Of a DNA stretch of 64,000 bases, positions 20,517 to 56,623 are shown piece by piece. The stretch is taken from positions 1,426,001-1,490,000 of the forward strand of contig NZ_JBBNAC010000001.1 of assembly GCF_037996825.1 (NCBI RefSeq), in the 5' to 3' direction. The translations under genes were made by a program, and so were the position numbers. Origin of the DNA: Bdellovibrio sp. BCCA (GTDB taxonomy: Bacteria; Bdellovibrionota; Bdellovibrionia; Bdellovibrionales; Bdellovibrionaceae). The notes beneath the pieces were generated by a model. The model had not been told where the DNA came from and searched no databases. It saw nothing but the letters and a program-made list of their open reading frames with translations. Every line of letters starts with the position of its first letter. Positions within the stretch are counted from its first letter, which is position 1.

Positions 20517-20602
20517 GCGGGTGTGGTGTAATGGTAGCCACGAGAGACTCAAAATCTCTTGGATTCACGTCCGTGGGGGTTCAAGTCCCTCCACCCGCAC
20601 CA
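20517..20602 (+). tRNA. tRNA-Leu (anticodon CAA)
   Basis: The acceptor GCGGGTG (20517-20523) pairs with CACCCGC (20592-20598), then discriminator A and encoded CCA (20600-20602). The D arm is GTG...CAC, the anticodon stem AGAGA/TCTCT closes loop CTCAAAA (anticodon CAA, reads UUG), a long variable arm of about 15 nt is typical of class II tRNA-Leu, and the T arm GGGGG/CCCTC closes TTCAAGT. 86 nt in all. Confidence 0.95.
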
Positions 20603-23168: not shown

Positions 23169-23203
23169 AAACCCCGTCTGCAAAGGCGGGGTTTGTTTTT
23201 TTT
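23169..23203 (+). terminator. Intrinsic terminator after the outer membrane protein gene
   Basis: Stem 23169-23179 pairs with 23184-23194 (one G-T pair) around loop GCAA, and is followed by eight Ts at 23196-23203. Confidence 0.9.
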
Positions 23204-23220
23204 GTTTCAGGCGAAGAGCG

Positions 23221-23373
23221 GTGGAGTTAGAGGGGGCTTGGGTTGAAGCAGTTGCTTCGGTCGGTACGCCCTCCTGGCTCAGTCAGCGCCGCGCTTTGCG
23301 CGGTTCGGGCCATCCAGGCCCCGCTGAAGGCCGTCCTTCGAACTGCTTCAACCCAAGCCTCCTCTAACTCCAC
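23221..23373. repeat. Structured repeat, copy 1: long inverted arms around a conserved branched core
   Basis: Left arm 23221-23253 and right arm 23341-23373 are 33 nt each and complementary at 32 positions (the exception is a G opposite T). Between them lies a core, 23266-23330, that matches copy 2 at 56358-56424 in sequence and in fold. Core helices: GCC/GGC (23268-23270, 23276-23278), TCAGCG/CGCTGA (23283-23288, 23322-23327), CCGCGC/GCGCGG (23289-23294, 23298-23303) and GGGCC/GGCCC (23307-23311, 23317-23321). It is not coding: small open frames across it have no signals and are broken by the palindrome. It lies between a terminator and the SurA-like gene. Family not recognised. Confidence 0.85.
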
Positions 23374-53933: not shown

Positions 53934-54614
53934 TTATTCGCCTCCAGAGTTATTACGATTCTTCTTCCCACGAGGAGCAGGAACTTCCGGAGGAGGCTCC
54001 GGAGCTGCCGGAACAGCGAGAGCCACCAATTTGTAAACGACATCGAAATAACGGGCATCTTCACGATTGGCCGTCATCACCATGTCTTTTAATTTCACAC
54101 TGGGATTGATCGTTTGAAATTGATAACCCAAATCCAAAACCTGACGCAGATTGAGCTTTGCAAGACTCACTTGCAAAAGTCCTTCTGTCAGATTTTTAGG
54201 AATCACCTTGGAATTGTTATCAGCGACTTCCGTACCCTTGATTTGTTCCGGCAAAAGATTCGCGTTTTTAATTTGATTTTCAACGCTGGAACGAATCATG
54301 TCCATGCTAGGGGCTTGCGGGATTTGCGGAATATCTGAAGACTCGCGGCTGACTTTAAGAAGCTCGCGAATTGTCATGCGCTTTCCTTCAAATTCTCCAA
54401 CGTACTCCTGAGACTGTGAATAGTAACGGTAGGGGACGGAAAGAATCATAAACGCAATCAACGCCGCTCCACCCACCAAAGTAACCTTTTGCATGGACGG
54501 CGACATGTTTTCGTAACGGTCGCGCAGTTGATTGTAAGTGCCGCTTTCTTGAATACGTTCCCAAGTGACGCGGGCATCAGAAACTAATTTATCTTTCAAA
54601 TCATCTAAATTCAT
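53934..54614 (-). CDS. gspM: Type II secretion system assembly protein, GspM-like
   Basis: 226 residues. Cytoplasmic helix (about 1-45), one membrane helix (MQKVTLVGGAALIAFMILSVPY) and a periplasmic part. The end is charged and Pro-rich (PAAPEPPPEVPAPRGKKNRNN). Sequence similarity to GspM is weak, and the name rests on size, topology and position between gspL and gspN. It starts inside the gspL stop (4-nt overlap) and likely pairs with GspL on the inner-membrane platform. Confidence 0.7.
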   Translation of the reverse strand: MNLDDLKDKLVSDARVTWERIQESGTYNQLRDRYENMSPSMQKVTLVGGAALIAFMILSVPYRYYSQSQEYVGEFEGKRMTIRELLKVSRESSDIPQIPQAPSMDMIRSSVENQIKNANLLPEQIKGTEVADNNSKVIPKNLTEGLLQVSLAKLNLRQVLDLGYQFQTINPSVKLKDMVMTANREDARYFDVVYKLVALAVPAAPEPPPEVPAPRGKKNRNNSGGE

Positions 54615-56278
54615 CTTGTCACCTTTTGGATACCGCGATCGACGTTAAAGCTGAAAGAGAAAGCTGTTTTTCCAGGAAGAGTTCCCAATGTAGATCTTTG
54701 CGTCTTCACTTGACCATCGGTTGTGATATTCGTGAGTGATTGTTGCAAAAGCGACATTTCTTGCGGAGAGCTGACATAGCCTTGCATGACCACTTGCGTG
54801 TCTTCGATTTGCAGTTGATGCACATCCAACGTCACAGAATTTTTCGGAGGAGTCGCATCGTTGATCTTTTTCACGATATCAAGAGCGGAGTTCATCGTTG
54901 CGACACTCGCCAATGTTTTAAGATCGGCGGCGCGCTTTTTGTTTTCACGAATGTATTTACGAATGCCACTTTCCGAAGCGTTTTTACCTTTAAGACCCGC
55001 AACGGCTTTGGCTTGGTCTTTCAAAACTTCCTGTGTGCGATCAGCAAGACTTAAGGAAAAACTTTCGCGTAAAGAAGTGTAAACGAAAAGAACCAGCAAG
55101 GCCGCTGTTGCGATCTTGAAAGTGTGGCCCCATTTTTCCCAGAACATTTTCATCTGGTGATTTTCTTTTGCAAACTCACCACGAAGGAAATTGATCGGAG
55201 GATTGCGCGGTTTTTTAAAACCTTCAATTGCAAGACCCAAAGCCACACCGGCTTTAGCTCCGTTTTGCACGGAACGTTCAAAAAGAACATTCGGAACCAA
55301 ATCCAATGAAGAAGTGCGGTTCACCGGGACTTCTAAAATCTGAGTCAAGAAAGGGCCCAGGTTTTGAATTTGTGAAACGCCGCCATTGAGATTGATCATG
55401 TCAATGTGTGCATTGAATTCACTTTTCAGTTCCAAGATTGAAAGCTGAAGATCACGCGCCATCTCGCGAACACTTTTGGCAATCGTGTCTGAGAAAGTCA
55501 CTTGGTCAAACGTAGCGCCTTGTTTGTTTGTCAAAATAAAGGCTTTCGTTTGCAGCTCTTTCATCGCTTCTAAAAACGGAATTTCATATTTTTTAGAAAT
55601 CGCTTCGGCGATATTTTTTCCGCCCCACAAAACAGAGCGAACGGCGATTAAAGAATTTCCTTCAAAAGCGCTCACAAGCGTGCGCGTGTGCCCCATGTTT
55701 AAAACCAATTGCACGTGACGAACGGGTTTGGCCTCTTCATCAATCGGAATGGCTGGAGGAAGTAGTGCAGGGGGAGCTTCGTTCCACTTTTCAAAAACGT
55801 TGGCAAAAGCAGTGCCTTCAGCGGAAATTAAAAACGGATCAATACCCGCATCTTGCGCTCTTTGAATGCAGTTTTGCACGTGAACTTTCGGAGCCGCACA
55901 AGCTAAGACTTCAGCGCCGCCACCGACAGTGCGAATGATTTTCGCATCAAAGATCGCGTTGTCCGAAGAAAAGGGAATGTCTTCTTCCAATTCAAAAGCC
56001 AAGCTCTTAGAAATTTTAATGCGATCGTTGAAAGGGAAGAACTTATTGCGAATGGCCACGCGGTCTTGGCGAAGCCCCAGGATAAAGCGTGTTTGATTCG
56101 GATCGTAATGACTTACGAAACTGCGGAGGAATTCAATGATTTCAAGTTCTTGGTCAGCTCCAAGTGCGATGTTGAGCGGGTGCTCAACGAATTGAGACAC
56201 TTGAAAACCTTTCGAAGTGTTTTGCACTTCGACAATTTTGATGCTGCTAGAACCTATGTCTATGCCGAGTGATTTCAC
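54611..56278 (-). CDS. gspL: Type II secretion platform protein GspL (PilM-like)
   Basis: 555 residues. The N-terminal 330 residues form an actin-like PilM/GspL domain (LGIDIGSSSIKIVEVQ, then LVLNMGHTRTLVSAFEG and LNGGVSQIQNLGPFLTQIL). A membrane helix (HTFKIATAALLVLFVYTSL) at about residue 375 is followed by a periplasmic coiled coil and a ferredoxin-like domain. This is a PilM-PilN style fusion. It would bind the ATPase GspE and GspM. It follows gspK at a 345-nt gap that holds the structured repeat. Confidence 0.85.
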   Translation of the reverse strand: MKSLGIDIGSSSIKIVEVQNTSKGFQVSQFVEHPLNIALGADQELEIIEFLRSFVSHYDPNQTRFILGLRQDRVAIRNKFFPFNDRIKISKSLAFELEEDIPFSSDNAIFDAKIIRTVGGGAEVLACAAPKVHVQNCIQRAQDAGIDPFLISAEGTAFANVFEKWNEAPPALLPPAIPIDEEAKPVRHVQLVLNMGHTRTLVSAFEGNSLIAVRSVLWGGKNIAEAISKKYEIPFLEAMKELQTKAFILTNKQGATFDQVTFSDTIAKSVREMARDLQLSILELKSEFNAHIDMINLNGGVSQIQNLGPFLTQILEVPVNRTSSLDLVPNVLFERSVQNGAKAGVALGLAIEGFKKPRNPPINFLRGEFAKENHQMKMFWEKWGHTFKIATAALLVLFVYTSLRESFSLSLADRTQEVLKDQAKAVAGLKGKNASESGIRKYIRENKKRAADLKTLASVATMNSALDIVKKINDATPPKNSVTLDVHQLQIEDTQVVMQGYVSSPQEMSLLQQSLTNITTDGQVKTQRSTLGTLPGKTAFSFSFNVDRGIQKVTR

Positions 56279-56326: not shown

Positions 56327-56454
56327 TTGGCTGGTAAGTATAGTTTAAATTACCGCCACGCCTTCCAGGCTCAGTCGGTGCCGAGGCTGCACCTCGGTTC
56401 GCGCCATCGTGGCGCCACCGAAGGGCGGTAATTTAAACTATACTTACCAGCCAA
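56327..56454. repeat. Structured repeat, copy 2: perfect 31-bp inverted arms around a conserved branched core
   Basis: Left arm 56327-56357 and right arm 56424-56454 are perfectly complementary over 31 nt. The core (56358-56424) matches copy 1 at 23266-23330. Helices: GCC/GGC (56360-56362, 56368-56370), TCGGTG/CACCGA (56375-56380, 56416-56421), CCGAGG/CCTCGG (56381-56386, 56392-56397) and GCGCCA/TGGCGC (56401-56406, 56410-56415). It lies between gspK and gspL inside the type II secretion operon. The arms share nothing with those of copy 1. Confidence 0.88.
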
Positions 56455-56623
56455 TCGGTAAAAGACCTCAGCGTGGCGCCTTCTGCGAAAGCTTTTGAAG
56501 AAGAATGAAGAATACTTTTCTTTCCCGGCCACGATGGCCGGGAAACGGCTGACTCATGGATGGTGGAAGATCGGAAAACTGTTTCTGCTGATTGAAAAAT
56601 GAGTGAGTGAGCTAAACTAAAGT
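56455..56623. other. Gene-free remainder of the gspK-gspL gap, with a perfect hairpin
   Basis: 56521-56531 pairs with 56535-56545 (TTTCCCGGCCA/TGGCCGGGAAA), loop CGA. Read on the minus strand, the tip is CCATCGTGG, the same nine bases as the tip of one helix in copy 2 of the repeat. No T-run of terminator type follows. No gene seen. Confidence 0.6.

Follow-up and report, generated by a model that had tools for sequence, protein, structure and literature searches.

This locus raises the question of whether two intergenic sequences that share a branched core with compensatory base changes represent a structured RNA, a mobile element or a site that acts as folded DNA. Element 1 (positions 23221-23373) and element 2 (56327-56454) are located in the window, by which we mean the whole 64,000-nucleotide stretch of the Bdellovibrio sp. 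BCCA genome that was analysed. Both were recovered at the positions given in an earlier note on this DNA and folded as claimed there, with z-scores of -10.9 and -11.7, respectively, and none of 200 shuffled sequences was equally stable. The five compensated pairs that the note had reported between the cores, and the identical unpaired segments TCAG, TTC and AGG, were all present. A feature missed at that stage was a near-perfect inverted-repeat stem of about 30 bp beneath the branched core of both copies; the stem sequences of the two elements are unrelated to each other.

The core, hereafter the head, is a 78-nt branched structure that consists of a side hairpin (H1) followed by a closing stem holding hairpins H3 and H4. 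The covariance model and the fold of the earlier note both used the plus strand, and motifs are given here as read on that strand unless stated otherwise. Element 1, for which we infer that the minus strand folds, starts with a left stem arm of copy-specific sequence (23221-23254) and ends with the right arm (23341-23373); the conserved head between them (23259-23334) obtained 89.3 bits with the covariance model R1. Within this head, H1 (23268-23278; GCC-N-TCC-N-GGC, with the loop GGA on the minus strand) is followed by the conserved linker TCAG (23279-23282; CTGA on the minus strand), and the 5' side of the closing stem (23283-23288), which pairs with its 3' side (23322-23327), encloses H3 (23289-23303; stem freely variable, triloop AAA on the minus strand), the conserved linker TTC (23304-23306; GAA on the minus strand) and H4 (23307-23321). 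By sequence reading, a terminator-like hairpin with a T-run, attributable to the preceding gene, is located directly before the element at 23170-23204 on the plus strand. Element 2 (minus strand) lies within the promoter region of a pilM-like gene (54611-56278, minus strand). Its head (56351-56428, 94.3 bits) is flanked by the arms (56327-56350 and 56429-56454) and contains H1 (56360-56370), TCAG (56371-56374), the closing stem (56375-56380 paired with 56416-56421), H3 (56381-56397), TTC (56398-56400) and H4 (56401-56415).

A few other structures were noted in the window. Adjoining element 2, a perfect small hairpin at 56520-56546, TTTCCCGGCCACGATGGCCGGGAAA, has GGCCACGATGGCC in common with hairpin H4 and is perhaps a relic. 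The sole Rfam match of the window is a tRNA gene at 20517-20599 on the plus strand. Pairing that extended for 60-86 nt beyond the arms was left uncounted because it partly consists of one terminator's T-run pairing with the A-run of the following terminator. We also considered a hammerhead-like core, with CUGA and GAA read on the minus strand, for which the strand order at the junctions does not fit.

A DNA search gave further copies in the same genome, after which a covariance model was built from five heads. With this model, six strong copies were identified in the source genome (E-values of 1e-14 to 1e-17), and the search of related genomes that the earlier note had called for returned copies in 22 of 24 Bdellovibrio genomes, at 2-30 copies per genome. 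Outside Bdellovibrio, among the 66 genomes of the family that were searched, copies were present in a single genome of another genus. The heads cluster by lineage. No family in Rfam 15 reached its curated gathering threshold for the element; a permissive search with element 1 yielded only weak miRNA-precursor-like matches far below threshold, and the phage, plasmid and viral collections searched contained no copy that scored. Matches in a viral contig (L254) and a MAG contig (L253) were chance pattern matches without a model score. The copies make up a previously unlisted family of elements of about 200-240 bp, situated at the ends of genes throughout Bdellovibrio. When the coordinates in five genomes (G001, G004, G007, G013 and G009) were viewed, the copies looked regionally clustered by eye, with 11 of 12 copies in G001 within 0.98-2.43 Mb and most of those in G013 within 0.2-1.2 Mb.

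The base pairing of the head was examined in 94 distinct sequences, in which 98.8% of the cells pair and double changes were observed at 21 of the 24 pairs. In this enlarged dataset the covariation held up statistically, with a score of 0.434 as compared with 0.119 in shuffled alignments, none of 500 shuffles reaching the observed value and scores of at most 0.065 when the pairing partners were slid. There were 358 double-changed and only 11 one-sided cells, and 8 of the latter concerned one loop-closing pair. In the RNase P RNA of these genomes there were 115 double and 91 one-sided changes, a contrast rather than a calibrated test since the two sets are unlike in divergence, number of sequences and selection of pairs. 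Such a scarcity of one-sided changes is odd for an RNA. Template switching during DNA replication creates and repairs hairpins, and its signature is multi-base compensatory events (PMC8794818). Covariation alone is therefore no proof of selection, because hairpin-templated DNA replication can yield the same pattern unselected (PMC8794818); it demonstrates that the hairpin forms and does not by itself prove selection for it. The earlier note had taken the compensated pairs as strong evidence for selection on folded RNA or single-stranded DNA. That the fold matters is supported, and the better evidence for it comes from the conserved unpaired bases, the strand-asymmetric mismatches and the triloops described below rather than from the covariation.

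The stem behaves differently from the head. Within each of 136 distinct copies the arms are about 91% complementary, whereas most stems could not be aligned between copies, apart from a weak GGCTTRG-like motif in many of them. In comparisons of close genomes, most orthologous copies were nearly unchanged, while some had both arms rewritten within flanks that were still 88-98% identical. Between G001 and G004, we counted 19 paired and no one-sided arm changes at the pilM site and a ratio of paired to one-sided changes of 15:1 for L213/L215; between G003 and G006 the ratios were 11:1 (L059/L061) and 9:1 (L080/L054). The change was confined to one arm in L065/L064. These counts are simple positional comparisons and are unreliable at indels, as in L077/L078 and L073/L230. 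Joint, block-wise rewriting of the two arms is in line with DNA template switching. The site upstream of pilM (L148-L171) contains two allele types that cross species boundaries, as well as truncated relics and losses. At this site the close flanks in G001 and G004 are near-identical, yet the arms and head differ.

The suggestion that the element is a non-autonomous mobile element gained direct support from an empty site, a recent duplication and lineage-specific amplification. An insertion of about 235 bp splits the T-run of a terminator in G006, whereas the close relative G003 has the uninterrupted terminator and provides a clean empty site. TATTTT flanks the insertion on both sides, as would a target-site duplication, although it lies inside the T-run and the borders are blurred at other sites. 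Relatives without the element were also found at the groEL, L105, L113 (in G011) and L062 sites, again with blurred borders. A 431-bp unit is present twice in G002, with the same left arm and at different genes; these two units (L110 and L111) run 272 nt past the head on the right, beyond the hairpin itself, and may represent the mobile unit in that species. The fusA site contains the element in eight species, in a decayed form in one and as a deletion in another, with no trace in further species (three loci left out). Sites at pilM with only a left arm in some species prompted the idea that insertion creates the arms by copying target DNA in inverted form. This was rejected, as the clean empty site has no arm sequence, the left-arm-only sites also bear the stem-base motif, and relics exist in G008 and G010.

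Neither Y1 transposases nor reverse transcriptases could be associated with the element as candidate movers. No copy was located within 1.5 kb of 12 Y1 genes, Y1 genes were not found in G002, G012 and G015, all of which have copies, and the two did not track each other across genomes (Spearman 0.24, p 0.27). Reverse transcriptase did not track the element either, RVT_1 being at or above the cut-off in 3 of 24 genomes. The only neighbourhood noticed was in G013 (C1:1181412-1181753 and 1183541-1183614), where a Y1 transposase gene is about 2 kb from a copy, probably by chance.

Three observations, independent of the covariation, indicate which strand folds. In the arms of the 136 distinct copies, read on the minus strand, 238 mismatches were purine-purine (190 G.A, 20 G.G and 28 A.A) as compared with 12 that were pyrimidine-pyrimidine (7 C.T, no C.C and 5 T.T), and G.T mismatches outnumbered A.C by 104 to 37. 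These counts are not all independent since related copies have some mismatches in common; the bias was found in several lineages. Strongly strand-biased mutation could mimic it, although a 27-fold difference (190 versus 7) would be extreme. On the minus strand, C(GAA)G, C(AAA)G and C(GCA)G predominate among the H3 loops and NGGAN in H1, and the linker reads GAA or GCA; DNA mini-hairpins with GNA loops are unusually stable (PMC4686876). The entire element was more stable on the minus strand in 134 of 148 cases under DNA energies and in 103 of these 148 under RNA energies. When the head was taken by itself, the minus strand was the more stable one in 120 cases versus 23 with DNA energies and in 83 versus 59 (p 0.2) with RNA energies, whereas the arms favoured the minus strand under both (113 versus 31 with RNA energies). 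The advantage is small for the two window copies themselves, and energy models are weak proof of DNA over RNA. We infer that the folding molecule is minus-strand DNA; going from energy models to the situation in living cells is the less direct part of this reading. The earlier proposal of a folded single strand thus stands, while the evidence favours the strand complementary to the one folded there, and DNA over RNA; a structured RNA is possible but not favoured.

Taken together, the copies have a three-hairpin head on a stem of about 30 bp, have spread by insertion, are in a fixed orientation behind stop codons, have been lost or have decayed at some sites and are asymmetric between strands. 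Our leading explanation, which we put forward tentatively, is a dispersed non-coding REP-like element, some 200-240 bp long and limited, as far as the searches reached, to Bdellovibrio and one related genus, that works as folded single-stranded minus-strand DNA. When exposed during replication, transfer or repair, the minus strand would snap into a branched hairpin, and a putative protein would recognise the head, including its purine triloops and invariant linkers. The stem would serve as a handle for which length matters and letters do not. In addition, DNA polymerase could use one arm of this hairpin as template for the other; the arms would thereby be re-symmetrised in blocks, and copies may diverge and yet stay complementary. 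The stem would be kept complementary by such hairpin-templated repair, in combination with selection on the head. The shape of the element has stayed exact even though its long arms have been rewritten, the probable reason being that one DNA strand folds when single-stranded. Spread would probably occur by a single-strand or similar transposition route with a putative enzyme acting in trans, and copies would be accepted, or favoured, immediately 3' of genes and terminators. It is conceivable, if rather unlikely, that the copies belong to a single-stranded DNA hairpin recombination or transposition system of Bdellovibrio's own, unrelated to integrons and REPs, in which a three-hairpin purine-loop signal sits on a stem of any sequence, both sides of which hairpin-templated replication rewrites simultaneously.

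RNA roles are possible given that one copy is part of a published transcript, and the main rival is consequently a plus-strand RNA element in the 3' UTR, which would end or protect the preceding mRNA in the manner of REP stem-loops, or act as a two-way insulator between convergent genes. The genomic positions of the copies agree with such a role. Based on simple ORF calls, 52 copies were located between convergent, 54 between co-directional and 10 between divergent genes. The upstream gene was co-oriented at 88 of 116 sites, and at convergent sites the upstream stop codon was the closer one in 44 of 52 cases (p 4e-7). The median distance from the stop codon to the arm was about 32 nt, with a second group at 60-100 nt, the inspected members of which lie behind a terminator. 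Pairs of copies less than 1 kb apart (about 18 including orthologues) were all convergent. With respect to replication no orientation bias was seen (7 versus 5 for the 12 copies in G001, judged by eye with the origin assumed near coordinate 0). One copy in G001, which probably represents strain HD100 given that its c-di-GMP riboswitch is at the location published for merRNA of that strain, falls within the published attack-phase plus-strand transcript APsRNA6, 3' of a 92-aa reading frame (PMC3627812). A two-way insulator must pair exactly on both strands, and this need would account for the missing G.U pairs. However, the mismatches and loops favour the minus strand, and on the plus strand the same arm mismatches become an excess of C.A over G.U (104 to 37). 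Moreover, some copies, such as those at the fusA site and element 1, are already behind an intact terminator, and the six other placed HD100 copies fall outside the eight published sRNAs, which were themselves chosen for attack-phase expression only. We consider a 3'-UTR role rather unlikely. The APsRNA6 transcript (L255:788-1442; HD100 coordinates 1,338,787-1,339,441) starts with the 92-aa, membrane-protein-like reading frame behind an AGGTGG site and could thus be an mRNA that carries the element in the 3' UTR. The end published for this transcript falls within another copy, which is degenerate and oppositely oriented (about L255:1415-1490).

Alternatively, the copies could be mobile or relic palindromes without a host role, the pairing of which is maintained only by template switching in DNA replication. 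The making and mending of hairpins by this process (PMC8794818), the block rewriting of the arms, the lineage amplification and the empty, deleted and truncated sites would all follow. This seems quite unlikely. Across species as far apart as G000 and G014/G016, fusA-site copies have retained the unpaired linkers and the head; unless these copies were re-inserted, template switching alone would not preserve such features. The strand asymmetry of the mismatches also speaks against it. Least probable of all is that each copy yields a minus-strand RNA acting in trans or as antisense, which could arise by read-through from the right-hand gene at convergent sites and would agree with the asymmetry of the arms under RNA energies, since the head lacks a strand preference under those energies, wobble pairs are almost absent, none of the eight published HD100 sRNAs is a minus-strand transcript of a copy and a minus-strand promoter was rejected for want of a conserved promoter-like motif in the right flank, the 5' side on that strand (48 of 95 copies anchored).

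A REP-like element that folds as single-stranded DNA invites comparison with known systems. Under the preferred model it would resemble attC sites and the ends of REPs and IS200 in being a single strand recognised by its structure, while it lacks tested hallmarks of each of them. MITEs, ERIC, Correia and BOX elements are likewise short, non-autonomous, intergenic and dispersed. In MITEs it is the terminal inverted repeats that are conserved and the centre that is dispensable, whereas the element has the reverse design, in that the arms are unrelated between most copies and there are no common terminal inverted repeats. Group IIC introns insert just behind intrinsic terminators in a fixed orientation. 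The element is also located behind terminators in one orientation, but it is far too short, has no Rfam intron match and occurs in genomes of which few encode a reverse transcriptase. IS200/IS605 elements use hairpin signals as single strands. This likeness extends to the RAYT systems (PMC3733652), although no Y1 gene is flanked by the element (12 loci). REPs and BIMEs are built from palindromes of 20-40 bp with a conserved stem and an unpaired GTAG or CGTC tag (PMC3733652). They resemble the element in being dispersed extragenic palindromes near stop codons, mostly between convergent or co-directional genes and avoiding divergent promoters, and some REP families lack a dedicated transposase (PMC3733652); pairs occur in both, and CGTC is found at the minus-strand stem base of some copies of the element. 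The element differs in its size of about 200 bp, its conserved three-hairpin head, its copy-specific stem, its far lower copy number and the lack of a constant tag: the stem-base motif [AG]CGRSG was present in 58 of 136 left flanks, as compared with 9 and 8 in controls. Integron attC sites are also imperfect inverted repeats with little sequence conservation and variable arms, read as a folded single strand and identified by structural asymmetry (PMC2727003). They have conserved R boxes and a variable tip, whereas the tip of the element is conserved and the element is not in cassette arrays; R boxes (RYYYAAC / GTTRRRY) paired at the stem base were found in only 1 or 4 of the 136 copies.

The usual design of bacterial palindromic repeats is thus inverted here, with a fixed head and a free stem. 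Orthologous copies offer natural snapshots of the rewriting of hairpin arms, and because they capture it, the alternatives of two selected steps and one template switch become testable in a bacterium. The family also serves as a warning that covariation in DNA palindromes need not reflect selection on RNA. Should some protein bind the folded strand, the element would be a new single-stranded DNA signal in a predatory bacterium that is used as a model. In two copies from G009 (L128:2136-2279 and L079:1580-1720), the head contains additional inserted hairpins; their loops are again TCC (GGA on the minus strand), as though hairpins were multiplying inside the element.
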